Shown here one piece after another: positions 38 to 18,944 of a stretch of 22,136 nt of DNA. The notes below the pieces were generated by a model, which saw only the letters and a program-made list of their open reading frames with translations, searched no databases and was not told where the DNA came from. This stretch comes from a virus. Location of the stretch: the IMG/VR virus record IMGVR_UViG_3300032020_000512, positions 1-22,136 of that record; one strand, 5' to 3'. Numbering within the stretch: the stretch's first letter is position 1; every line of letters begins with the position of its first letter. Position numbers and translations under genes: made by a program.

Positions 38-127
38 TCGAGCGAAGAAAATCTAATAATAAGTATTAGTCTCCCTACAAGAAAATCTCATTTTTGCCAA
101 ATTGTATTTAAAATCTGTGGATAACCT

Positions 128-379
128 GTGAATAATATGAAACTCTCCTTTATAGATAAAGACTTTAAAAAGCATTCTTCCTTTGAAATAACCCCAGAAG
201 ATGAAAAAAGATGGGACAATAAGGAATTTAAGAAAAAAGATATTTCCAGAATTATTACTGAAGCGGTTCGAACCTTAAAACAAGCAGGAATTTTAGAAGA
301 AGATATTAGGGTTATAGATTGGGAAGGAAGAAAATTGTTTCATTTAAAAGATTTTAGTGTTGACAAGATAATAGAATGA
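128..379 (+). CDS. Small hypothetical protein before terminase
   Basis: This 83-residue charged protein has no family I recognise. Translation can begin at GTG 128 or at ATG 137, three codons later; neither has a clear ribosome binding site, and ATG 137 is at least as likely. Its TGA overlaps the ATG of the large terminase gene (ATGA at 376-379), so the two are probably translationally coupled. It sits where many phages keep the small terminase subunit. I see no helix-turn-helix or clear DNA-binding motif, so that identity is not claimed. The middle (around residues 35-65) looks helical and the end is DFSVDKIIE. Confidence 0.7.
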   Translation: MNNMKLSFIDKDFKKHSSFEITPEDEKRWDNKEFKKKDISRIITEAVRTLKQAGILEEDIRVIDWEGRKLFHLKDFSVDKIIE

Positions 380-1695
380 CTACTGCCGAATTTTCAAAGA
401 TTATTGATTGGAAGCCTCATAAAGCCCAAAGAGAGATTTTAAAGTCTAAAGCTAGAGAAATAGTGGTTTGTGCGGGGCGGAGATTTGGAAAATCTGCTTA
501 TTGTGCCTTTGTTGTCGCCAAAACATTTATTGAACTTTTTAAAGAAGTTGAAAGGGGGAAAAGGGAATCAATTAAAATCTGGATTGTAGGACCGACCTAT
601 GAATTGGCGGATAAAGTTTTCACCTATGTTGTTAATTTTTTAAGAAAAGCCGACCCCAAAATAATAAATTTTGTTAAAAATAGGCCATTTCCAGAGATAG
701 AACTTTCAAAAAATATCTGGATTCAATGTAAATCGGCTGAAAATCCTAAAAGTTTGTTGGGAGAAGAGTTGGATTTGTTAATTGTTGATGAGGCGGCTAA
801 TATTTCTTCCGATATTTGGTTTGATTATTTGCTTCCAACTACCGCTTCTAAAACAAAACAAGGCAAAACGATCTTTATTTCAACACCCAGAGGGAAAAAT
901 TGGTTTTATGAACTATATTTAAAAGCCAAAGAATCAGAAGGAGCATTCCATTTCACTTCTTTAGATGGAGTTGAGATAGATAAATCTGAATGGGAAAGAT
1001 TAAAGACCATTTCCCCTGCCGATTTCTTTGCCCAGAATTATGAAGCAGTTTTTAGAGAAGAAGCGGTCGGAGTTTTCAGAAAAGTAAGAGAAGCAGTCAG
1101 ATTAGATTGTTTATCAGAACCCTTGCCTAACCATTCTTATTTTGGCGGATTGGATTTAGCCCAAGTTAGGGATTTCACGGTTTTAACCTTTTTTGATAGA
1201 GAAAGCCATAAACAAGTTTTCTTTGATAGATTCCAGAAAATTCCTTATACCCTACAATTAGAAAGAATAGAAAAGGCGGCTAAAAAATATAATGCTCTTT
1301 TAACCGTTGAAATAAATAATATTGGCTTGGCAATTGCTGATGAATTAAAAGCCAGAGGGGTAAGAGTTGAGGATTTTAAAACTGTTGGCACAATTTCTAA
1401 AGTTTTAGAAAGGAAAGGGACAAAAGAGCAGTTAATAGAGAAACTCTCGCTTGATATAGAAAATAAGAATATCTTTTTAGCCCCGATTGAGGTTCAGATA
1501 GATGAATTAGAGGCCTATACTTACAATTACACCCCTTCAAGAAATATCTCTTATGGGGCTCCAGAGGGGATGCACGATGATTGTGTTGTCGCAATAGCAC
1601 TTGCTGATTGGGGCTTAAGTGGTAAAACTCGTGAAGAAAAAATAAAAAAAATGAGATTAATTCCTCATAAAAGGAAAACATTTCAATATTTCTAA
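376..1695 (+). CDS. terL: Phage terminase large subunit (TerL)
   Basis: This is the ATP-driven DNA packaging motor and genome-cutting nuclease. The N-terminal ATPase domain has a Walker A motif AGRRFGKS (residues 33-40), a Walker B motif LLIVDEAA with D138 and E139, and a coupling motif FISTPRG (167-173). The C-terminal RNase H-like nuclease domain shows candidate metal ligands D260 in GLDLA, D266, E312 in TVEINN, and the D401/D402 pair in MHDDC. At 439 residues the length is normal and no key motif is missing. The start overlaps the preceding gene by an ATGA junction, and the portal-like gene follows after 3 bases. Terminase next to portal is the classic head-module order, so this is the firmest call in the window. 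Confidence 0.95.
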   Translation: MTTAEFSKIIDWKPHKAQREILKSKAREIVVCAGRRFGKSAYCAFVVAKTFIELFKEVERGKRESIKIWIVGPTYELADKVFTYVVNFLRKADPKIINFVKNRPFPEIELSKNIWIQCKSAENPKSLLGEELDLLIVDEAANISSDIWFDYLLPTTASKTKQGKTIFISTPRGKNWFYELYLKAKESEGAFHFTSLDGVEIDKSEWERLKTISPADFFAQNYEAVFREEAVGVFRKVREAVRLDCLSEPLPNHSYFGGLDLAQVRDFTVLTFFDRESHKQVFFDRFQKIPYTLQLERIEKAAKKYNALLTVEINNIGLAIADELKARGVRVEDFKTVGTISKVLERKGTKEQLIEKLSLDIENKNIFLAPIEVQIDELEAYTYNYTPSRNISYGAPEGMHDDCVVAIALADWGLSGKTREEKIKKMRLIPHKRKTFQYF

Positions 1696-1698
1696 AAT

Positions 1699-3429
1699 AT
1701 GTTAGAAAAGTTTAAAAACGAAATTAATCAATTTGAAAGAGAATTTGTGGAAGTTGTCCCTGGTTTTAAATTTAATCAGAAAAAAACAATTGAGCGAATT
1801 TATCTTTATTACAATTCAAAATACGAAACTGGGGAATTTGACAATCAGGGAGATAAAAAATACTTCTATAATATAGTTAGAACCCCCTGCAATATCGCCA
1901 CAAAGGCAATTGATTTTGATACCAAAGATATTAAAGTTTTAACTGCCGAAGGGGGAAATCCAAGAAAAACTTGGTACTTTGAAAGAGATTTAAAATTCTG
2001 GATGAAAGACCAGAAATTTGGAGCAGTCTTGAATCGTATATTTTTTGAATTGCCAATTTTTGGCTCAGTAGTTTTGAAAATAATTAATGGAACGCCTTAC
2101 TTTGTTGATTTGAGAAACTTCATTGTTGATCAAGGGGCGGATTCATTAGAAAAATCAAATTATATTGTTGAAGTCCATAATTATACCCCAGTTGAATTCA
2201 GGAAAATCGCCCAAGAAAGAAAGTGGAATAATTATGAAGAGGTTATTAAAAAACATAGAGAAGGAAAAAAACCTTTAATCAAAGTATATGAGAGATATGG
2301 AGAATTAGAAGAAGATGGCGTCTGGGCTTTTAGAAAAGTTCTTATAGCCGATATCGAAATAAAAGATGTTGAATTTATTTTATCTGATGAATTAGTAGAT
2401 GAGATTCCTTATGAAGAATACCATTGGGAAAAAATCCCTGGCAGATGGCTGGGGATTGGAAGAATAGAAATTTTATTAGACCCCCAAGTTAGAACAAATG
2501 AAATTTCTAACCAAGAAGCAAAATCTTCTCAATGGTCAACTTTAAGAATTTGGCAATCAAGAGACCCAGGGGTAAATAGAAATCTTCTGACCGATGTTGA
2601 AAATGGAGAGATTTTAACTGTTGATTCTGAAATTATGCCCGTCGACATGGTTGATAGGAATTTGAGTTATTATGAGAGTGAAATCCGCCGATGGCTTGCC
2701 AATAGAGACGAAATGACTTTTTCCTACGATGTTATTAGGGGCGAGAGATTACCTTCTGGAACTCCTCTTGGTTCGGCTCAATTGGCGGCTGGAATGATTG
2801 GTTCTTATTTCGACCAGATTAGAGAGAATGTCGCAATGGCAGTCAAGGATTTGATTATAGATAAAATAATTCCCAAGTTTTTAAGCGAAAAATCAAAAGA
2901 ACATACCTTGAGATTGGTTGGGGAAGATTTGGATAAATATAAAGAGTTATTATTAGATTTCGCAACTGAAAAATCTGTTTTTGACTTGATAGAAAGAACG
3001 AATCATTATCCCACTGGTAGAGAAAAAGAATTACTGCGAGGAGTTGTGGCTGAACAAATTAAAAGAGATAAAGAAAAATTAGTCACTATCCCCAGAGGAT
3101 TTTATAAAGATATTCAGTATAAAATTGATATTGAAATTACTGGCGAGGCAATTGATATTAGGGTTAAGGCAGCCAATTTGTGGATGGCTTTGCAAGCAGT
3201 TACGGCAAGTCCTGATTTATTAACAGACCCAATAAAGAAAAAATTCTTTTATCAGTGGTTGGAAAGTGGCGGACTTTCTCCTATAGATTTTGAACCTCCG
3301 ACAACTACTCCTTCACTTCAAGAAGTAGTTGGTCAAATGCCCGCCCCAACTGGAAGGGCTGGTGGAGGTGTTAGTCGCCCAGCTTTTGCACCAATACCAA
3401 TAGCTGGTAGAGAAGAAATTAGAGTTTAG
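1699..3429 (+). CDS. Putative phage portal protein
   Basis: The portal is a ring, usually of 12 subunits, at one capsid vertex; DNA passes through it and the terminase and tail attach to it. This 576-residue protein directly follows the terminase and precedes the scaffold and coat genes. Its length and mixed alpha/beta, charged composition fit portals of podovirus-like phages. The C-terminal tail (about 530-570) is rich in Pro, Gly, Ala and Thr and probably flexible. Portals lack a short diagnostic motif, so the call rests on position, size and general resemblance. The ATG at 1699 follows an A-rich TAAAAT with no Shine-Dalgarno. It ends in TAG, which shows TAG is a stop in this genome. Confidence 0.78.
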   Translation: MLEKFKNEINQFEREFVEVVPGFKFNQKKTIERIYLYYNSKYETGEFDNQGDKKYFYNIVRTPCNIATKAIDFDTKDIKVLTAEGGNPRKTWYFERDLKFWMKDQKFGAVLNRIFFELPIFGSVVLKIINGTPYFVDLRNFIVDQGADSLEKSNYIVEVHNYTPVEFRKIAQERKWNNYEEVIKKHREGKKPLIKVYERYGELEEDGVWAFRKVLIADIEIKDVEFILSDELVDEIPYEEYHWEKIPGRWLGIGRIEILLDPQVRTNEISNQEAKSSQWSTLRIWQSRDPGVNRNLLTDVENGEILTVDSEIMPVDMVDRNLSYYESEIRRWLANRDEMTFSYDVIRGERLPSGTPLGSAQLAAGMIGSYFDQIRENVAMAVKDLIIDKIIPKFLSEKSKEHTLRLVGEDLDKYKELLLDFATEKSVFDLIERTNHYPTGREKELLRGVVAEQIKRDKEKLVTIPRGFYKDIQYKIDIEITGEAIDIRVKAANLWMALQAVTASPDLLTDPIKKKFFYQWLESGGLSPIDFEPPTTTPSLQEVVGQMPAPTGRAGGGVSRPAFAPIPIAGREEIRV

Positions 3430-3431
3430 AT

Positions 3432-3677
3432 ATGTTAAAAAAAGACATAGAACAATATCTTAAAAAATTAGCCCATTCAAATGAGGGGCAAGCCCTTAAG
3501 GAATACTTTGAGGAATTGATAGGAAAATTAACTGATGCCAGAAGCTTTGGGGGAGAAAGTTTTGAAATAGAAGGAAAAGCATCCATAAAAGCGGTGGCTA
3601 TTTTAGAGAAAATTTTAAGAGATTTGGAACTTTTAAAAAGGTCGAAAAAACAAATTAAGAAAAATATATATATGTAA
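3432..3677 (+). CDS. Small helical protein after portal
   Basis: An 81-residue protein starting 2 bases after the portal stop. It looks helical, with an N-terminal segment (MLKKDIEQYLKKLAHSNEG), a Gly-containing middle and a basic C-terminal helix (LERSKK-like, ending KKNIYM). Small helical proteins at this position are common in phage head modules, but I do not recognise a named family. An accessory role in the portal or capsid assembly is possible from position only. Confidence 0.65.
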   Translation: MLKKDIEQYLKKLAHSNEGQALKEYFEELIGKLTDARSFGGESFEIEGKASIKAVAILEKILRDLELLKRSKKQIKKNIYM

Positions 3678-3730
3678 TTTCGCAATTGCGCCTTGGGAGT
3701 AATCCTTAAAGACTTTGCGGAAACAATAAA

Positions 3731-3958
3731 ATGGCTTGGAAACCAAAAGTTACAATACAAAAAGGTGCATTTACAGATTGGTGCAAATCCCACGGGTTTT
3801 CTGGTCCGAGCACAGCTTGCGTTAGAGCGGCTTTGGCTGCGGCTAAAAAACAAGGTGGTGCGGGAGGAAAAACATTGAGAGGGAGGGCTTTATTTGCTTT
3901 ACGAGCTAAACAGGGTTGGAAAAAAACTATTGGAACAGCTTGGAAAAAGGCTGCTTAA
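3731..3958 (+). CDS. Small basic Ala/Gly/Lys-rich protein
   Basis: A 75-residue strongly basic protein beginning MAWKPKVTIQKGAF and ending GWKKTIGTAWKKAA. A second reading frame (3693-3878) overlaps it, but this frame has the more protein-like composition and ends 3 bases before the next start. Residues about 29-57 (TAC, then Ala/Lys-rich sequence, then KTLRGRALFAL) resemble the next small protein (TACLALAAK, then KRLRGPALSMY), so the two may be diverged relatives. Two Cys (C18 and C29) are present. The composition would suit binding nucleic acid or another negatively charged partner, such as DNA in the head or the acidic scaffold. That is inference. Confidence 0.6.
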   Translation: MAWKPKVTIQKGAFTDWCKSHGFSGPSTACVRAALAAAKKQGGAGGKTLRGRALFALRAKQGWKKTIGTAWKKAA

Positions 3959-5024: not shown

Positions 5025-5894
5025 ATGGCTGAATTAAACGTTTTCAGTGCTGCTCTAAATCCTGAAGTATGGGCCCCATATCTCCAAGATGTCTTAATGA
5101 AGAGTTTGGTAAGTTTTGAGATTGCTGATACTTCTTTAAAGCCTGAATTAAATGTCGGTGATAAGGTGCATGTTCCTTACTTCATCGAATTGACTGCTGC
5201 TGATTATGACCCAGGTAATGCAATTACCATTACTGGAGTAACAGCAACAGATGATTCAATTGATGTAACGACAAAGAAAATCGCTCCTTTTTATATCGAC
5301 AATGTTCAAGAATTACAGGCAAAACCAGAAGTTATTGGTAAGCTTTCTGAAAATGCTGCTTACAAATTAAGAGATGCGATTGACACTGCGGTTTTGGCTT
5401 TTGTTTCTGGTGCTGCAGTTGTATTTGGCACAAGTGCAACAACTGACTATGTAACTGGGACTACCGCTTTGACCTCAATGACTGCTACCACTGCTAACAT
5501 CATTACGATGTTTAGCAAGGGAGCGAAAGTATTACAAGAAAAGTATGTTGAAAATGCGAATGACTGGATTGCTATTCTTACCCCTGCACTATATCAGATA
5601 ATTACAGAGAAAGTTGCCAATACTGGTGGAGATTTGGCTGACCGAGTATTAGAAAATGGTTTCGGGGGAAGATTTATGGGTTTTGACCTTTATGTGTCGA
5701 ACAGTCTTCCTTCTGGATACTTCTATCTTGGCAGAAAAGCCCAAATCAGTTTGGTTTTACAGCAAGATGTTAAGATGGAGATAAAGGAAGTTTCTGACAA
5801 ACTTGGAAGAAACTTCATTCCTTGGGTAGTTTATGGAGCAGGCGCACTGGTACAAGCCAAAAAGAGATACTTGGCTGTTAAGTGCACTGTCTAA
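5025..5894 (+). CDS. Putative major capsid protein (HK97-fold type)
   Basis: The 289-residue likely coat protein forms the icosahedral shell. Order (terminase, portal, scaffold, then this gene), size and composition all fit. The N-terminal helical region (NPEVWAPYLQDVLMKSL) leads into a beta segment (VGDKVHVPYF) and a spine-like stretch around 90-125 (FYIDNVQELQAKPEV, ENAAYKLRDAIDTAV). A C-terminal part (GFGGRFMGFDLYVSNSLP, then WVVYGAGALVQAKKRYLAVK) resembles P22/T7-like coat proteins in style. The gene has the best ribosome binding site in the window, as expected for the most abundant virion protein. I see no large insertion domain. HK97 fold is inferred from this general pattern, not from a signature motif. 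Confidence 0.88.
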   Translation: MAELNVFSAALNPEVWAPYLQDVLMKSLVSFEIADTSLKPELNVGDKVHVPYFIELTAADYDPGNAITITGVTATDDSIDVTTKKIAPFYIDNVQELQAKPEVIGKLSENAAYKLRDAIDTAVLAFVSGAAVVFGTSATTDYVTGTTALTSMTATTANIITMFSKGAKVLQEKYVENANDWIAILTPALYQIITEKVANTGGDLADRVLENGFGGRFMGFDLYVSNSLPSGYFYLGRKAQISLVLQQDVKMEIKEVSDKLGRNFIPWVVYGAGALVQAKKRYLAVKCTV

Positions 5895-5971: not shown

Positions 5972-6157
5972 ATGGATAAAGCAAAAATAAAAAGAAAAAT
6001 GGCAGAAGAAAAACAAGAGGAATTGTTCCGCTATGAGATTTTAGAAGAGTATTTGAAAGAAAGGATAGAGCAAGGAGAAATTATTAAAAGAAATGACTTA
6101 GCTAAGGTTCAGAGAATATTAACAGAAATTAAAAGTATTCTGGAATTTTTAAAATGA
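5972..6157 (+). CDS. Small helical hypothetical protein
   Basis: A 61-residue charged protein, probably two helices (MDKAKIKRKMAEEKQEELF and RNDLAKVQRILTEIKSILEFLK). It has an AGGA ribosome binding site 4 bases before the ATG, which the upstream structured spacer could mask. Its TGA overlaps the start of the glycosyltransferase gene (ATGA at 6154-6157), so it could couple coat-region translation to the sugar cassette. It may be the last head gene or the first cassette gene. I recognise no family. Confidence 0.65.
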   Translation: MDKAKIKRKMAEEKQEELFRYEILEEYLKERIEQGEIIKRNDLAKVQRILTEIKSILEFLK

Positions 6158-7239
6158 AAATTGTATATTTCCAATCAGGATCAGAAGATTTTAGATGTGG
6201 TGTTTGGTTTTATAGACAAATAATTCCTGCCAAAGCCTTAAGAAAAAGAGGACACGAAATTAAAATGGCTGTTTTAACAAATAGGATTGACGAATGGTGG
6301 TATAAATTTCCAGATGTAGTTATTTTTAGAAATGTTTATCTTTTTGACCCTGTTTCAGCTATGAGAGAATTGAAGCGAAGGGGAAAGAGAATAGTTTATG
6401 ATATTGATGATGATTTTTGGACTATAAACCCAGATAATCCCGCTGCCAAGACTGCCAAAGAAAAAGTAGAACAAATTACCGCCTTATTAAAAGAAGCAGA
6501 TATTGTTACCACAACAACCGAAGTTTTGAAACAACGACTTTCAAAGTTTAATAAAAACATTGCCATTGTTCCGAATGCCCTTGATTTTACTGAATTTTGC
6601 GAGAGACCAAAAAATGAAGGACTTTTAAAAGTTGGTTATACGGGCGGAGCAAGTCACTGGGGAGATTTAGAGATGGTTGCTAATGTTATTGGAGAACTCC
6701 AAAAGAAATATAAGTTTAAATTTGTTTTACAAGGAATAACGGGGGACCCCTTAATAAATGAGATTTATACTTATAGATATTATCTTGGGCAAGGATTACA
6801 ACCAGAAAAAAATGAATTTTATGAAGCCGCTATGAGAACATTTGAAAAGTTGAGAAGATTAAATTATATTCACATCCCCTGGTATCATCCAGAATTATAT
6901 CCGCCGATTTTAGTAGGAATGGATTGGGATATTGGACTTTGTCCGCTAAAAGACAATTCTTTTAATCAAGCAAAAAGTTGTGTAAAGTTTTATGAATATG
7001 CCGCTGTCGGAACTACCTGTTTGGCTTCTGATGTTCTGCCTTATAAAAACGAAGTGAATTATCGAGCAAAGAATACTTTTAAAGATTGGTATAAAAAATT
7101 AGAGAAATTGATTAAAGATGAAAAATTTAGAGAAAAAATTACTGAAAAACAATGGGAATTTGTAGAAAAAAATAGAAACATTGAAGAGGTCATTCTTCAA
7201 TGGGAAAAAATATTGGGCTATGTTGGTTCTCAATCCTAA
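6154..7239 (+). CDS. GT-B fold glycosyltransferase (GT4-like)
   Basis: A 361-residue putative glycosyltransferase that would move a sugar from a nucleotide-sugar donor to an acceptor. The N-terminal half has a Rossmann-like start (MKIVYFQSG), an ALRKRGHEI segment and an acidic motif YDIDDDFW (82-89) common in phage and bacterial members of this group. The C-terminal donor-binding half has VPNALD (about 140-150), a glycine-rich turn (VGYTGGASHWGD), and KSCVKFYEYAAVGTTCLASD (271-290). E281 in that stretch matches the conserved Glu of the GT4 donor site. It starts at an ATGA overlap with the small upstream gene and overlaps the next gene by 20 bases. Donor and acceptor cannot be read from the sequence. 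No membrane segment is seen. Confidence 0.85.
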   Translation: MKIVYFQSGSEDFRCGVWFYRQIIPAKALRKRGHEIKMAVLTNRIDEWWYKFPDVVIFRNVYLFDPVSAMRELKRRGKRIVYDIDDDFWTINPDNPAAKTAKEKVEQITALLKEADIVTTTTEVLKQRLSKFNKNIAIVPNALDFTEFCERPKNEGLLKVGYTGGASHWGDLEMVANVIGELQKKYKFKFVLQGITGDPLINEIYTYRYYLGQGLQPEKNEFYEAAMRTFEKLRRLNYIHIPWYHPELYPPILVGMDWDIGLCPLKDNSFNQAKSCVKFYEYAAVGTTCLASDVLPYKNEVNYRAKNTFKDWYKKLEKLIKDEKFREKITEKQWEFVEKNRNIEEVILQWEKILGYVGSQS

Positions 7240-7906
7240 AATTAGTATTCTTTTGACTTCATATAATAATTTAGAGGTAAGGCGGGCGATAGAAAGCATA
7301 TTAAACCAAACCTATCAGAATTTTGAGATAATCCTTTTAGATGATAATTCAAGCGACCCGAAAGTTTTAGAGATTTTAGAAAAATATAAAAAACACCCCA
7401 AAGTAAAGTTCTATAATTCCCAGATTAAAGAAGAAGACAGATTAAAAGAATGTCCCTATGCCAGACAAATAAATATAGGACTGAAAATGGCGATTGGTAA
7501 ATTGATAATTTATATGTGCGATGATGTGGAATATTTACCTCACAAGTTAGAAACGATGGTAAAGTTCCTAAAAAGACATCCGACAGTAAAAGTTTGTTAT
7601 AACCAACAAAAATGGATAAGGCAAAGAACAGGAGAAGTTATAAGAATTTTAAAACCTGATAGAATTTTAAGAGACCCATTCGGAAAAGTAGACCATAATT
7701 CTGTAATGCATTATAAAAGCTGTATTGACAAAGTTGGAAATTGGGGTACCTCTGCTTTCGGGGTAGCAGATGCTCTTTTTTGGCGGAAATTAGGAAAAGA
7801 ATATCCATTTTATCCCATTAAAGAGATATTAGAAATTCATTATCGGAGCGAGAAATGTTTTTCAAATAAAGTAAGAGAATTATTAAAAAAAAATGAGAAA
7901 GCTTAA
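7220..7906 (+). CDS. GT-A fold glycosyltransferase, family 2-like
   Basis: This is a glycosyltransferase of the GT2 type. The reading frame opens earlier, at a TTG (7181) deep inside the upstream gene. ATG 7220 is preferred because it places the family start KISILLTSYNN near the N-terminus, giving 228 residues. Typical elements are the first strand and loop (ILLTSYNN), the helix AIESILNQTYQNFEIILLDDNSSD, and an acidic CDDVE (100-104) in the place of the DxD metal and nucleotide site. A hydrophobic middle and basic C-terminus follow. The last 14 bases overlap the next gene. It is shorter than many GT2 enzymes and has no membrane helices, so it may be soluble. Substrates are unknown. Confidence 0.82.
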   Translation: MLVLNPKISILLTSYNNLEVRRAIESILNQTYQNFEIILLDDNSSDPKVLEILEKYKKHPKVKFYNSQIKEEDRLKECPYARQINIGLKMAIGKLIIYMCDDVEYLPHKLETMVKFLKRHPTVKVCYNQQKWIRQRTGEVIRILKPDRILRDPFGKVDHNSVMHYKSCIDKVGNWGTSAFGVADALFWRKLGKEYPFYPIKEILEIHYRSEKCFSNKVRELLKKNEKA

Positions 7907-8315
7907 TCTGGGCTGTGGCCAAGAAAAAAAAGAAGGGTTTATAGGGATAGATATTAAAGATTATGGGCAAGAAATAGTGAGGGACTTAACGAGAGGAATT
8001 CCTTTTGACAGTGATTCGGTAGATGAAATTTATTCCTGCCACTGTTTAGAACATATTGAAAGAAAAGATGTTCCTTTTATCTGGGAAGAAATTTATCGAG
8101 TTTTAAAACCTGGTGCTATTGCTTATATTCGTGTTCCCCATAGTTCAGAACGAGAAGCTTTTATGATGAATCATTGGTCTTATTGGAACGAAGCAGTGGT
8201 TGAAGTTTTGTGTAATAAATGGGGCTCGCCAGACCATTTTACTAAAACCAATTTTGAAATTTTAGAAAACAAAAAGGAGGGAACAGAACTTCATATTAAA
8301 CTAAAGAAAATATGA
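7893..8315 (+). CDS. Small class I SAM-dependent methyltransferase
   Basis: A 140-residue methyltransferase of the type-11 style, which would transfer a methyl group from S-adenosylmethionine. Motif I LNLGCG is at residues 4-9, the acidic end of the second strand is GIDI (18-21), and the segment DSVDEIYSCHCLEHI (41-55) and EIYRVLKPGAIAYIRVP follow family order. It is at the short end for the fold and has little substrate-recognition sequence. Because it sits between two glycosyltransferase genes and a sugar dehydratase gene, O-methylation or capping of a glycan is a reasonable guess. It overlaps its upstream neighbour by 14 bases and the downstream gene by an ATGA junction. A nucleic-acid target is not excluded, but no such motif is seen. 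Confidence 0.82.
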   Translation: MRKLNLGCGQEKKEGFIGIDIKDYGQEIVRDLTRGIPFDSDSVDEIYSCHCLEHIERKDVPFIWEEIYRVLKPGAIAYIRVPHSSEREAFMMNHWSYWNEAVVEVLCNKWGSPDHFTKTNFEILENKKEGTELHIKLKKI

Positions 8316-9370
8316 AAACCGCTCTTGAAGAAGAAAAACAAACAATCACCCAAATATATATTCCAAAAAGAAAAAGATTACTGCTTACAGGAGGTTGCGG
8401 ATTCGTTGGGCATCACATTGTTGAGGGTGTGCTTAAGCAAACAGATTGGGAAATAATAATATTAGATGCCCTAACCTATGCGGGAAATTTAAACAGATTA
8501 ACTGATATTTCAATTTGGGATAAAGAAAAACATCGAGTTAAGTTTATCTGGCACGACTTGAAAGCTCCGATAAGTGAAACTACTCATAAAATGATTGGAG
8601 ATTTGGATTATATCTGGCACTTAGCGGCTGAAAGCCACGTAGGAAGAAGCTTGGAAGATGCTGTACCGTTTGCTATGTCAAATGTAGTGGGAACGACTCA
8701 TTTGCTTGAACATATTAAGCACCGTCAACCGAATCTGAAAATGTATATTGGGTTTAATACTGATGAAGTATTTGGATCGGCTGAAATAGGAGAATATCAC
8801 TTAGAAACCGATAAGTTTTATCCGTCAAATCCGTATTCGGCAGCAAAAGCAGCCCAATGGTGTATGGAATATGCCTTTGCTCATTCGTTTGGTTTGCCTA
8901 TTTGTATGGTGCACTCAATGAACATTTTTGCAGAAAGACAGCACACTGAAAAGTTTATTCCGATGGTTGTAAAAAGAATTTTGAATAATGAGAAAGTTAT
9001 TATTCACGGAATTCCTGGACATATCAGTCAGAGGCATTGGATACACGCAAGAGAAATATGTAATGGATTGCTCTTTTTAACAGAAAAGGGGGAACCAAAA
9101 GAAAGTTATAATATTATTGGTGAAGAAAAGGATGCTTTGTGGATTGCTAATAAGATTTGTCAGGTCATTAAAGACAGGGATTTGAAAGAAGACGAAATAG
9201 AATATTTTGATTTTCACGCTTTAAGACCTGGGCACGATTTCCGCTATGCTTTAGATGGAAGTAAATTAAGAAATTTAGGTTGGCAACCGAAATTAAATTT
9301 AGATGAATCTTTGGAAAAAACTATTAAATGGATGATAAAAATAGAAAATCGGAAATGGTTAAATCTGTAG
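8312..9370 (+). CDS. RmlB-like dTDP-glucose 4,6-dehydratase family protein
   Basis: A short-chain dehydrogenase-like nucleotide-sugar enzyme. RmlB turns dTDP-glucose into dTDP-4-keto-6-deoxyglucose using bound NAD. A 20-residue lead precedes the NAD site GGCGFVG (27-33). Next come DALTYAGNL, the family motif HLAAESHVGRS, the catalytic TDE (150-152) in NTDEVFG, the YSAAK pair Y175 and K179, and LRPGHDFRYALD near the C-terminus. This set closely follows RmlB and all core catalytic residues are present, so an active enzyme is likely. Related dehydratases (GDP-mannose, UDP-GlcNAc) share much of this; LTYAGNL and RPGHD favour RmlB. No RmlA, C or D is nearby, so the donor would come from the host. 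It ends in TAG and overlaps the next gene. Confidence 0.85.
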   Translation: MKTALEEEKQTITQIYIPKRKRLLLTGGCGFVGHHIVEGVLKQTDWEIIILDALTYAGNLNRLTDISIWDKEKHRVKFIWHDLKAPISETTHKMIGDLDYIWHLAAESHVGRSLEDAVPFAMSNVVGTTHLLEHIKHRQPNLKMYIGFNTDEVFGSAEIGEYHLETDKFYPSNPYSAAKAAQWCMEYAFAHSFGLPICMVHSMNIFAERQHTEKFIPMVVKRILNNEKVIIHGIPGHISQRHWIHAREICNGLLFLTEKGEPKESYNIIGEEKDALWIANKICQVIKDRDLKEDEIEYFDFHALRPGHDFRYALDGSKLRNLGWQPKLNLDESLEKTIKWMIKIENRKWLNL

Positions 9371-10269
9371 TAGTTTCAGCGGTTCATAGGCAGCCATCTG
9401 AAGATTGGATTAGATATTTACCACTGCCTGCCATAATTGTTGATGATAGCAATGGTAAGATTGAGATAAAAAAAGAAGGAGTAGAAGTGATTGATTATAA
9501 AAAAGAAAAAGTATGGGAGAAGTTTTATTATTCGTCAGCTTGTAAGAATTTTGGTCTTTGGTTAGCATATAAGAGAGGATATGATGTGATAATGGTTTTA
9601 GATTCTGATTGTGTTGCTCCAATTGATTTTAAAGAAAAACATTTGAATGCTTTAATAAAAACAGGATATGGCTGGGAGAATCCATTAAAAAGTATAGGTT
9701 GGTTTCCTCGTGGTTATCCATATTCACAGAGAAACAAGAAAGTAGGAGTGAATATGGGATTGTGGACGAATGTTTTAGATATAAATGGAGCTGATAGAAT
9801 AAAAAGAAAAAGTTTGGTTAAATTTGATAGAAAAAAGACGAAAATCGCTGTTGGTAAAATTCCGTTCTCTGGAATGAATGTAGCGATTAGAAGAGATTTA
9901 ATCCCTGGAATGTTCTTTTTACCAAATTTTGAGTATAAAGAACTGAAATTTAGAAGACACGATGATATTTGGGGAGGATATATTTTGCAAAAATTAATGG
10001 AAAAGAAAGGAGATGTAGTTGATTATGGTCCGCCAATTGTTTTTCACGAAGGAGAAGTAAATGCTGAAGAAGATGCTAAAGAAGAAGAAGCAGAAAATTT
10101 TTATAGTGATTCGTTTTATAGTTTAGTTGATGAAATGATGAAAGATATTCAATTTGGAAGTTATCAAGAAATGTTTGGTCAGTTTGCTGATAAGTGCGAT
10201 TTGTTAAAAGGAACTGTTTTTGAGCCGTTAATAAGTTCAATTAAGTGGTGGAAAGAAATTTATGCCTAA
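9355..10269 (+). CDS. RGP/UDP-arabinopyranose mutase-like protein (GT75-like)
   Basis: A 304-residue protein whose motif order recalls the reversibly glycosylated polypeptides of plants, which interconvert UDP-arabinopyranose and UDP-arabinofuranose. In order: VVSAVHR start, VLDSDCVAP (DSD at 83-85, matching the family DDDC), RGYPYS (119-124, family RGYPFS), GLWTNVLD (135-142), PFSGMNVAIRRDL (170-182, family CGMNLAFNREL), and RHDDIWGGY. The Arg of RGYPFS is, as I recall, the self-glycosylated residue, and it is present (R119). ATG 9355 is chosen over ATG 9328 because it begins at the first conserved strand; it overlaps the dehydratase gene by 16 bases. The fold is GT-A-like, so an ordinary transferase is an alternative. 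The match is made by eye. Confidence 0.7.
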   Translation: MVKSVVVSAVHRQPSEDWIRYLPLPAIIVDDSNGKIEIKKEGVEVIDYKKEKVWEKFYYSSACKNFGLWLAYKRGYDVIMVLDSDCVAPIDFKEKHLNALIKTGYGWENPLKSIGWFPRGYPYSQRNKKVGVNMGLWTNVLDINGADRIKRKSLVKFDRKKTKIAVGKIPFSGMNVAIRRDLIPGMFFLPNFEYKELKFRRHDDIWGGYILQKLMEKKGDVVDYGPPIVFHEGEVNAEEDAKEEEAENFYSDSFYSLVDEMMKDIQFGSYQEMFGQFADKCDLLKGTVFEPLISSIKWWKEIYA

Positions 10270-10876
10270 ATGTTCAATTATTTTAGTTACTTTTAATAGA
10301 TTAGATTATACAAAACAAACAATAGATTCGCTTTTAAAAACAGCCTCGTCTGATTTTGAAATGTTTATTATTGATAATGCTTCTTCTGAATTAGGTTTCC
10401 ACGATTATTTGACCGAATTAGAAAAAGATAAAAGAATTACTATTATCCGCAATTATAAAAATGTAGGTTGGGGAAAGGCTACGAATTTAGGACTGAAACT
10501 TTGTAGAACAGATTGGATTTTATTGTCAAATAATGACGTTATTTACAAAGAAAATTGGTTTGAAAAATGCTTGTTAGCTTACGAAGATTTCCCCGAGATT
10601 GGGATTTTAGGACTATGGAAGCATCCTTTTCATACAATATTGGGGGAGAAACAAGGCAAAAGAAGTAAAATTATTATTAAAGATCAAATGCCAGGAGTTG
10701 CTTGGTTAATGAAAAAAGAAGTTTTAGATAAAATTGGACCGATTGCTGAAGCAGGTCCTTGTGATAGACAAGGTGGATGTGGCGAGGATACGAATTATTG
10801 TGCAAGAGTTAGAGGGGCTGGGTTTCTGGTTTGTGGACTCAATGAAGATATTGCTGAACATATAACGAAGACATAA
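10262..10876 (+). CDS. Glycosyltransferase family 2-like (second copy type)
   Basis: A 204-residue GT2-type enzyme, the last of the sugar cassette. It begins with the classic strand CSIILVTFNRLDYTKQTIDSLL, then FEMFIIDNASSE, NVGWGKATNLGL and SNNDV (89-93, NND in the DxD position), with a later GEDTNYCARVRGAGF that fits the acceptor-site ED motif. This pattern resembles rhamnosyl- and similar transferases, but the sugar cannot be named. The protein is shorter than full-length GT2 enzymes (often 250-350 residues), and the C-terminus stops soon after the core. It overlaps the GT75-like gene by 8 bases and is followed by a 38-base spacer before the connector gene. Confidence 0.83.
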   Translation: MPKCSIILVTFNRLDYTKQTIDSLLKTASSDFEMFIIDNASSELGFHDYLTELEKDKRITIIRNYKNVGWGKATNLGLKLCRTDWILLSNNDVIYKENWFEKCLLAYEDFPEIGILGLWKHPFHTILGEKQGKRSKIIIKDQMPGVAWLMKKEVLDKIGPIAEAGPCDRQGGCGEDTNYCARVRGAGFLVCGLNEDIAEHITKT

Positions 10877-10894: not shown

Positions 10895-10918
10895 ATGGCT
10901 AAATTTATAAAAATATGA
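10895..10918 (+). other. Seven-codon mini reading frame before the adaptor gene
   Basis: ATG 10895 opens MAKFIKI and stops at a TGA that overlaps the start of the adaptor gene (ATGA at 10915-10918). It may feed ribosomes to the next gene, or be the remaining beginning of a gene lost when the cassette arrived. Chance is also possible in such A-rich sequence. Confidence 0.25.
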
Positions 10919-11643
10919 AATATAATTCAACGTCAACGCTCGACGGCCTAATACAGGATTGTGAAACTCTTTTAGCAATGAGCGATGCAGGTATTTCTGG
11001 TGACGCTACATTATTAAAGGTTTTTACCCGCCTTATCAATGTTTGGTATCGAAGAGTAAATTCCGCTATCTGGGATGTGTGTGGGACTTGGGAATACGAT
11101 GATTCAAATTATACTGATTTACCAGTAGCAACTACTACTTTAGTAGATAGCCAGCAGGATTATGAAATTCCTTCAACCGCTCAAAAAATATCAAAAGTGG
11201 AAGTTTTGGATTCGAGCGGAAACTATCAATTACTAACTCCTTTTGATGAGAGTATGGTAAAAGATAGGGCAATGTCTGAGTTTTATGAAACAGCGGGGCT
11301 TCCTATTTATTATGATTTAAAGGGTCGCTCTATACTCTTATATCCCAAACCTTCCAGTAGCAAGGTTACTTTAGCCGCTGGCTTAAAAATTTATTTCACA
11401 AGAGATATTTACGAATTTGTTTCAACTGATACTACAAAAGAACCAGGATTTATAAATAGTTTTCATCGATTATTATCTCTTGGCGCTTCTTACGATTATG
11501 CTATGAGTTATGAAATGCTTGAAAAAGCCAATTTCTTAAAAGGGCAGATAAACGAAATGATTTCAGAATTAAAGAGATTTTACGGGGCACAGCATAGAGA
11601 TATGCGAACAAGAATAAGACCTCGCAGACAAACTTATTTATAA
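10915..11643 (+). CDS. Putative head-tail adaptor (connector) protein
   Basis: A 242-residue protein that probably attaches below the portal. It has an N-terminal helical region (residues about 8-50, with LLKVFTRLINVWYRRVNSAI), a segment with SQQDYEIPSTAQKISKVEVLD, a Pro-Lys beta segment (LLYPKPSSSKVTL), and a helical C-terminal part (FINSFHRLLSLGASYDYAMSYEM) ending in a basic tail. The segments on damping or 'DYEIP' resemble a common phage adaptor pattern in podo- and siphoviruses. The gene restores virion-structural content after the sugar cassette. P22 gp4-like function is inferred from pattern and place, not proven. Confidence 0.65.
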   Translation: MKYNSTSTLDGLIQDCETLLAMSDAGISGDATLLKVFTRLINVWYRRVNSAIWDVCGTWEYDDSNYTDLPVATTTLVDSQQDYEIPSTAQKISKVEVLDSSGNYQLLTPFDESMVKDRAMSEFYETAGLPIYYDLKGRSILLYPKPSSSKVTLAAGLKIYFTRDIYEFVSTDTTKEPGFINSFHRLLSLGASYDYAMSYEMLEKANFLKGQINEMISELKRFYGAQHRDMRTRIRPRRQTYL

Positions 11644-17019: not shown

Positions 17020-18390
17020 ATGACACCTAAAATCGTAATAGATTCTTTCGATGCTGGAATTTTAGAAGATAAAACAGTTCAAGCCAGAAATGGATTCAGT
17101 TTTGGGGCGGGTTTAGATATTATAAGAGAGAAAGGAATCTTACAAGTTTCTCAGAAATTGGAAGCAATGACAGAAGCGGCTTCACCAAATAATATTACCG
17201 ATAGACCATTAAGAATTTTACAATATGGATTAGCTTATTATGCTTTAGGTTCTTCAGGAAGAATTTATAAATATGAAGCAGGTGCGTGGACAAAAAAATT
17301 CGCAGATACAATTACTGTTGCTGATGAAATGATAGTTTTTAATGGAAATATGTATTGGATGACCGATAATGCGACTAATGCCAATATGGGAAAATTTGAT
17401 GGAGCTACTTATACTGATTCGGCTTCTTTTAAAACTGGTTTCACTCTTTGTGCTATAGGGCATCCAATGGTTATTTTTGAGAATAAATTGAGGATTGGAA
17501 ACGGAAGATATGTAGCTACTATGGATACTGCCGAAAATGTAACCCTAACCAGTTTAACTTTACCTCAGGGATATGAAATTTATTCTTTGGCGGTTTATGG
17601 AAATAGGTTGATAATTGGGGCAACTAAATTATTAGAATCTGCCTTATTTTCTTGGGATGGAGCTACTACGCTTCCTGAACAAATGTGGGAAATAAGAGAA
17701 ACTCCTTATGTCTTAATTAATTGGAAAAATCTTTTAATAATTTTATCGGGAACAAAAGGAAACATTTATGCTTTTAATGGAGCAAGCGTAACGAGAATTA
17801 AAACTTTAAGATTCAAAATGTCAGAATTTACTGGCGGAATTCCAAGAAAAGGAGCAATAGCCGAATTCAAAGGAAATCTACTTTTTGGATATGGATATAA
17901 TGGTTGGGCTTATTGCGGAATTTATCAATTAGGAGTTGAGGAAGGATTCCCAATGGTTATGAGCCATATTTGTTCCCCTGGGTTATCTAATGTTGAACCT
18001 TATTCAATCCTATCGGTTGGAGGCGACCAGTTTTATGTTGGTTGGTATGACCAAACAAATTGCGGAATTGATGCTATAAGTCTAACTACCAGAATTGCCT
18101 CTACTGCTTATTGGGAATCACAAATTTATGAAATTGCCCCAGCCAGTAATCCTATCCCTATTAAAGGCATAGAACTTATTGCTAAACCAATGGCAAGCGG
18201 AACTTCAGTAACTATCAAATATAAATTAGACAATGCCTCCTCTTGGTCGACTTGGGGGACAATAAATTCAACAAATCAAAATAAAGCTTTAGTAAAGGGC
18301 ATTGGATTGGCAAAAACAATTCAAATACAATTAACATTTACTTGTTCAACGAGTTATAGCCCCGAAATTTCTATCATTCGTATCTATTGA
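17020..18390 (+). CDS. Beta-propeller-like tail protein
   Basis: A 456-residue protein with regularly spaced beta segments and turns: [82 protein letters not shown]. These resemble blades of a propeller. The last 75 residues (from about 382; [20 protein letters not shown]) look like a separate beta-sandwich. P22 gp10 and T7 gp12 tail nozzles are beta-propeller proteins, so a nozzle or stabilising role fits, but this is not sequence proof. It precedes the endonuclease gene by two bases. Alternatively it could be a distal tail protein. Confidence 0.68.
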
Positions 18391-18392
18391 CT

Positions 18393-18944
18393 ATGCCTTC
18401 TCCAATCATAAAAGGAAATAAAATAAATTTAGGAAGAAAACATTCAAAAGAATGGAATGAGAAAATAGGAAAATCAAATTCCATTATACAAAAAGGAAAA
18501 CATAATTCTCCCAAAACGGAATTTAAAAAAGGATTAATTCCTTGGAATAAAGGAAAACATCATTCTCAAAAAACAAAAGAAAAAATAGGAAAAGCCAATA
18601 AAGGAAAAAAAAGAACTAAAGAGATGCTTAAATGTAGAAAAAATTTCTGGAAAAAACAAGGAAAAACTATGGAAAAATCTCCAGCATGGAAAGGAGGAAA
18701 ATGTTTTCAGAATGGATATATTTTAGTAAAAACTATTGAAGGTTATATTCTTGAACATCGATTAGTAATGGAAAAATACCTTGGAAGAAAATTAGAACCT
18801 TGGGAAATGATTCATCATAAAAATGGAATTAGAGATGATAATCGTATTGAAAATTTAGAAATTACTACAAGGGCAGAACATCGTAGAAAAAGATTAAAAG
18901 TAAAATGTCCTAAATGTAATTTTGAATTTTTAATTAAACATTAA
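18393..18944 (+). CDS. HNH homing endonuclease with NUMOD3 motifs
   Basis: A free-standing homing endonuclease of 183 residues. TTG 18387 also opens the frame, but ATG 18393 starts just after the preceding stop and is preferred. The N-terminal region repeats basic NUMOD3 DNA-binding segments ([35 protein letters not shown]), with linker [12 protein letters not shown] between them. The HNH centre is [11 protein letters not shown] (from E121), H141-H142-K143-N144-G145 and [10 protein letters not shown] with N150 and N154. A CxxC pair (C172, C175) near the end is half a zinc ribbon. These enzymes cut specific DNA and spread their own gene. No intron border is visible, so it is an intergenic insertion. 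Confidence 0.9.

Follow-up and report, generated by a model that had tools for sequence, protein, structure and literature searches.

Coat-linked glycosyltransferase and exchangeable sugar cassettes suggest virion glycosylation in an uncultured phage lineage

IMG/VR virus record IMGVR_UViG_3300032020_000512 comprises 22,136 bases and was analyzed in its entirety (the window). Between its genes for a major capsid protein (MCP) and a connector-like protein lies a cassette of six sugar genes, at positions 6154 to 10876 on the + strand. Our analysis suggests that phages of this kind place custom sugars on their own shells, and we consider it probable that the cassette is a phage-encoded virion glycosylation module. 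Its first gene, encoding a glycosyltransferase of the GT-B fold (GTB), accompanies the coat gene almost as a core gene would, and the remaining cassette has the character of an exchangeable insert. An earlier note, made from the sequence alone, had described all six genes as one inserted cassette; this description fits the genes downstream of GTB, but not GTB itself. A more specific proposition, for and against which we see about equal weight, is that coat glycosylation is built into the making of the capsid, with a dedicated GTB co-inherited with MCP and a hypervariable cassette supplying very different sugars (nonulosonic/sialic-like acids, deoxy-furanoses) to many coat subunits.

That MCP is the acceptor is inferred here mainly from the tie between GTB and the coat protein. 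IMG/VR was scanned twice, once using only GTB as the query and once using only MCP, and the best 80 loci of each scan were kept; because the two sets share contigs, the pairing counts are not independent events. An MCP of the window type was located just upstream of GTB in 78 of the 80 GTB-sampled loci, within 1 kb in 76 of these, and the gap was typically 230 to 380 bases. The exceptions were L297 and L298, in the latter of which GTB is directly 3' of an unrelated major head protein. Conversely, GTB was just downstream of MCP in 73 of the 80 MCP-sampled loci; five more were cut short and two were without GTB (L092 and the truncated L217). Together, the 118 MCP-GTB pairs represent 75 lineages at 95% MCP identity, 43 at 80%, and 16 at 60%. 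The gap between the two genes contains an open reading frame (ORF) of at least 35 amino acids in 74 of the 75 lineages, and in a few of them this is the connector gene itself.

GTB presence follows MCP type better than it follows portal or connector ancestry. It tracked MCP type in a first sample of loci, and it requires two changes on the MCP tree and six on the connector tree (48 loci), and three on the portal tree (37 loci). A single GTB clade was rejected by the connector data (approximately unbiased test, p 0.016), but not by the MCP data. L093, the nearest relative as judged from terL (73%), exhibits a natural swap: its terL, portal, and connector genes are close, but its MCP is highly dissimilar and GTB is absent. 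Distances of MCP and GTB correlate at 0.85, a value that co-inheritance alone could give. Two considerations limit how far these data support a functional link with the coat. Portal ancestry accounts for the distribution of GTB almost as well as MCP does (three versus two changes), and adjacent genes may also be linked through conserved gene order. Shared head-block ancestry indeed explains part of the pattern, given the few changes on the portal tree. That gene order is the whole explanation, with no functional link to the coat, is nevertheless distinctly unlikely in our judgment. GTB is of one family in all 75 lineages, whereas the gene following it belongs to at least 12 families across 61 lineages; the connector is on either side of GTB, depending on the lineage; and in L298, the MCP that precedes GTB is unrelated.

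The near-obligate pairing of GTB with one coat family favors the capsid as the site of glycosylation over fibres, host surface, or DNA. The earlier note had suggested modification of the capsid or the fibres, and of these our data favor the former. According to the alternative, the sugars are added to tail fibres or to virion proteins other than MCP, and the neighborhood of MCP is merely convenient for late expression. Fibre-like genes are situated downstream in the same gene block, and PMC12619734 cites Freeman 2023 for glycans on the tail tube as well as the capsid of mycobacteriophages. By contrast, GTB tracks MCP type and is lost upon the MCP swap in L093. We thus regard fibres or other virion proteins as unlikely principal targets.

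The interval between MCP and connector is a variable slot, often filled with sugar genes. A search of IMG/VR with the connector gene (10915..11643, + strand; weak family match to phrog_6013, E 0.0024) yielded 68 viral loci with a homologue, usually 3' of MCP, which supports the assignment of the weakly matched window gene that closes the slot. The order terL-portal-scaffold-MCP-slot-connector was kept in most of those loci that were long enough to show it. Slot length ranged from 49, 57, and 58 bases at the empty sites of L144, L137, and L145, respectively, to more than 9 kb. Based on Pfam matches, the 187 slot ORFs scanned were mostly glycosyltransferases, epimerases/dehydratases, DegT aminotransferases, methyltransferases, and cytidylyltransferases, with some sulfotransferases and APS kinases. 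Although the slot accounts for about 20% of the bases in 50 records, sugar genes crowd into it (PF00535, 19 of 21; PF01370, 18 of 21), as do all 17 GTB homologues after extension of the records. The slot of L107 contains GTB, methyltransferase, RmlB, RGP, and GT2 genes followed by the connector, which corresponds to the window order minus one glycosyltransferase (GT2a), and that of L095 contains a small ORF and GTB alone. In part of the family, membrane-anchored or virion-like proteins take the place of sugar genes.

These comparisons bear out the placement of the cassette between coat and connector genes, the latter gene recurring at this position in many of the 68 loci. They also answer two checks that the earlier note had proposed: gene order recurs, for five of the six genes, in the separate record L107, and relatives have the same slot either filled by variable sugar cassettes, in many cases, or empty (49-58 bases). 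Host contamination or misassembly of the cassette, named at the time as what would refute the proposal, was rejected as very unlikely, because the order and the slot recur in separate records. The arrangement had also been called unusual; within this lineage, it is common. Sugar genes occur at other sites as well. In L095, two epimerase-family genes and an RGP homologue form a second sugar slot between terL and portal (1206-3920), and RmlB homologues are positioned upstream of terL in L084 (450-2392) and L001 (8370-10354), the copy in L001 being paired with RGP.

In 15 relatives, the 111 ORFs located 3' of GTB included 13 matches to NeuB, 13 to the CMP-sugar transferase family, 10 to LicD, and six to epimerases. 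The predicted pathway is of the nonulosonic-acid type in most of the relatives sampled. In the literature searched, we found nothing relevant that joined nonulosonic acid with a phage capsid. A DUF4910/M28-peptidase-like protein recurs beside NeuB, with 13 of each (cassettes of L187 and L270-L291), and the cassette of L083 includes a PEP-mutase-like protein.

In the window, the proposed glycan acceptor is encoded at 5025..5894 (+; phrog_267 major head protein, 3e-31). It is followed by a 61-amino-acid coiled-coil-like ORF (5972..6157, +), for which position alone suggests a possible role as an accessory factor. This ORF shares 4 bases with GTB, is conserved alongside it, and has homologues with 36-44% identity in L094, L095, and L099. 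It was missed when the set was first described and belongs with it; all six sugar genes listed at the time are present on the + strand, at the positions given then, and their family matches agree. GTB (6154..7239, +), a GT4-like enzyme, matches phrog_7162 (glycosyltransferase, E 1e-45) and has no Pfam match and no PDB match by sequence; it includes a conserved KSxxKFxE region. Its predicted structure is a two-domain GT-B fold (predicted local distance difference test score, pLDDT, 89), and the nearest PDB folds include BshA, MshA, and PglA (Foldseek E about 1e-11). The family 2 glycosyltransferase GT2a (7220..7906, +; PF00535, 3e-21) has homologues at 50-52% in L094 and L099, in both cases within the slot; its longest frame, 7181-7906, opens with TTG, and the ATG at 7220 is the likelier start. 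Next is a small S-adenosylmethionine-dependent methyltransferase (7893..8315, +; PF08241, 7e-9) with a 41% homologue over 82 amino acids at the same place in L107, for which sugar O-methylation or capping is possible. A second family 2 glycosyltransferase, GT2b, with an NND motif (10262..10876, +; PF00535, 4e-24), ends the cassette.

Between the methyltransferase and GT2b are two enzymes of predicted donor synthesis. The first (8312..9370, +; PF16363, 6e-47) resembles RmlB, an NDP-hexose 4,6-dehydratase: it matches solved dTDP-glucose 4,6-dehydratases over its full length (best PDB match 2hun, 3e-50), and the extended short-chain dehydrogenase/reductase motifs TDE (ntdevfg) and YxxxK (ysaak) are both present in alignment with 2hun. 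In contrast to the RmlB pathway, RmlA, RmlC, and RmlD were not seen in the window. The second is an RGP-like protein of family GT75 (PF03214, 2e-15), with 9355..10269 (+) as the likelier extent within a longest frame of 9328-10269. Its best PDB match, at 5e-12, is MtdL, a GT75 NDP-pyranose mutase; this identity was established via PMC9937993 by matching the residue numbering. The mechanistic residues given there for MtdL are D109, D111, R159, D195, R257, D260, and H287. All seven have counterparts in the window protein and are invariant in five phage homologues: D109 and D111, the first and third residues of the DXD motif, and the metal-binding H287 correspond to D83, D85, and H231, and the acceptor Arg159, together with Asp195, Arg257, and Asp260, to R119, D142, R201, and D204 (counted from 9355). 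By residue conservation, the protein is a predicted pyranose-furanose mutase. It shares these catalytic and binding residues with the known GT75 mutases (MtdL and plant RGP/UAM), but differs in being phage-borne and in the middle residue of the DXD motif, which is Ser instead of Asp. The donor made with RmlB and GT75 would probably be a 6-deoxy furanose.

With the likelier starts at 7220 and 9355, neighboring cassette genes overlap by 20, 14, 4, 16, and 8 bases, in agreement with the 4 to 20 bases reported before. The genes are presumably co-transcribed. In a check for promoters and terminators inside the cassette, promoter-like matches did not exceed those in shuffled sequences (20 versus 24.5), which makes them uninformative.

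We propose the following order of reactions, in which both the order and the sugars are conjectural. GTB, which is soluble, most likely acts in the cytoplasm, joining the first sugar to coat protein that has just been synthesized, and the variable genes downstream would make the nucleotide-sugar donor and extend or cap the glycan. The RmlB-like dehydratase would form an NDP-4-keto-6-deoxyhexose, to be completed by host or unassigned enzymes, and the GT75 mutase would turn a pyranose donor into a furanose donor. Further sugars would then be added by GT2a and GT2b, with possible capping by the methyltransferase. Beyond the question of gene order, several observations weigh against this proposal. 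In L092, the one clear case of its kind in this coat family, MCP is without GTB, and a fusion of GT4 and FkbM methyltransferase is present instead, after a cytidylyltransferase (6031-7881). The window shows no reductase or epimerase that would complete the RmlB product, and the record probably covers only a portion of a genome of ~40 kb. The MCP structure prediction is poor (pLDDT 43.5), and an exposed acceptor loop cannot be located in it. Finally, the fold matches of GTB include, lower in the list, T4 alpha-glucosyltransferase (AGT), which acts on DNA, so that the fold alone names no acceptor.

The glycosyltransferase genes are within, or tied to, the head gene block, as expected for virion glycosylation. 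Phage sugar genes may also serve to remodel the host surface for superinfection exclusion or receptor change, as gtr seroconversion modules do. The GT2 enzymes of the window have weak GtrB-like PHROG matches, and nucleotide-sugar genes of O-antigen type have been reported in phages predicted to infect Patescibacteria (PMC12911398). However, the membrane GtrA flippase and GtrC that accompany GtrB in O-antigen conversion have no likely counterpart here, as none of 293 slot ORFs has three or more hydrophobic segments, and PF02397, the sugar-phosphate/lipid-carrier transferase family, was absent from all of 50 related records, many of which are fragments. Both results argue against lipid-linked surface glycans. 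A position in the head block and a tie to MCP type would also be unexpected for such a function, which makes it very doubtful. Hypermodification of phage DNA with sugars is highly improbable. Phage glycosyltransferases can glycosylate DNA, and T4 AGT has the same GT-B fold as GTB, but the cassette adjoins coat genes rather than replication genes. Moreover, PF00303, the thymidylate-synthase/hydroxymethylase family that would provide a dCMP/dUMP hydroxymethylase, was found in none of the same 50, often fragmentary, records, which argues against glucosylation of hydroxymethylated bases.

All window genes are on the + strand: terL, portal, a scaffold-like gene, MCP, the 61-amino-acid ORF, the six sugar genes, the connector-like gene, and fibre-like genes, with an HNH endonuclease in the fibre region (18387-18944; phrog_20891, 4e-18). 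A relative, L169 (MW202577.1), is circular at 39.6 kb, with no sugar genes annotated; a complete genome is thus expected near 40 kb, of which the window is probably about half. Matches to cultured relatives were limited to one weak match for the connector and weak matches at 23-32% identity for MCP.

Some features bear on the host. In L125, a sister record (IMGVR_UViG_3300009537_000070), TGA is a sense codon, and glycine is the plurality residue at 15 of 30 aligned TGA positions, so that L125 most likely reads TGA as glycine (code 25). TGA is also a sense codon in Gracilibacteria and Absconditabacteria (PMC10746230), pointing to a host from these groups for at least one relative. Shine-Dalgarno-like motifs precede one of 17 window genes and 34 of 788 genes across the 75 lineages (4.3%, compared with 4.4% in shuffled sequences), and directly 5' of the ATG of many window genes is an A-rich run that ends in AT; this combination hints at a host with translation initiation independent of such motifs. 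L160 (JALTGF010000032.1), the sole connector match in a scan of genome collections, preserves the slot order, with a GT-B-like gene, an epimerase, a DegT-like aminotransferase, and then the connector (40-3769). Its contig was binned to an archaeal metagenome-assembled genome, in which no archaeal 16S was found. L160 is either a mis-binned virus or a real archaeal virus, and it is not decisive for the host.

Few phages are known to glycosylate their virions. The coat-enzyme pair kept across 75 lineages beside exchangeable cassettes makes it testable why they do so. If our interpretation is correct, capsid glycans are a widespread and variable trait of environmental phages, comparable to serotype variation, and these loci offer soluble glycosyltransferases that act on proteins, along with their natural acceptors, as well as pathways to rare sugars.

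Among the closest known arrangements is that of MW202801 (uncultured podovirus ctQWt234, Manatee Spring), in which MCP is followed by an oxidoreductase, a glycosyltransferase, a PhyH dioxygenase, a methyltransferase, a NodB-like protein, and a GTB homologue. In contrast to the window, this homologue is divergent (24%) and last instead of first, the other enzymes differ, and a P22-like stabilization protein follows. As the earlier note had anticipated from actinobacteriophages, there is precedent for glycosylated virion proteins: glycans are reported on the MCPs of mycobacteriophages Che8 and Rita in PMC11256854, and the region between portal and protease of the cluster O mycobacteriophage Corndog encodes an O-methyltransferase and three glycosyltransferases, with a proposed role in capsid modification (PMC4351075). 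A near-obligate pair of coat protein and glycosyltransferase, or a swappable slot for donor synthesis, was not found described in the literature searched, which included few subscription papers. The lineage reported here shares with the mycobacteriophages the presence of phage glycosyltransferases and a methyltransferase in, or serving, the head module. It differs in gene position, as the set of Corndog is between portal and protease and the glycosyltransferases of Maravista are near the far genome end, in being uncultured, and in its donor enzymes, namely RmlB and GT75 in the window and NeuB and CMP-sugar transferase in relatives. Thus, the kind of system is already known from mycobacteriophage virion glycosylation, and what is new is the near-obligate pair of coat and enzyme with swappable cassettes.

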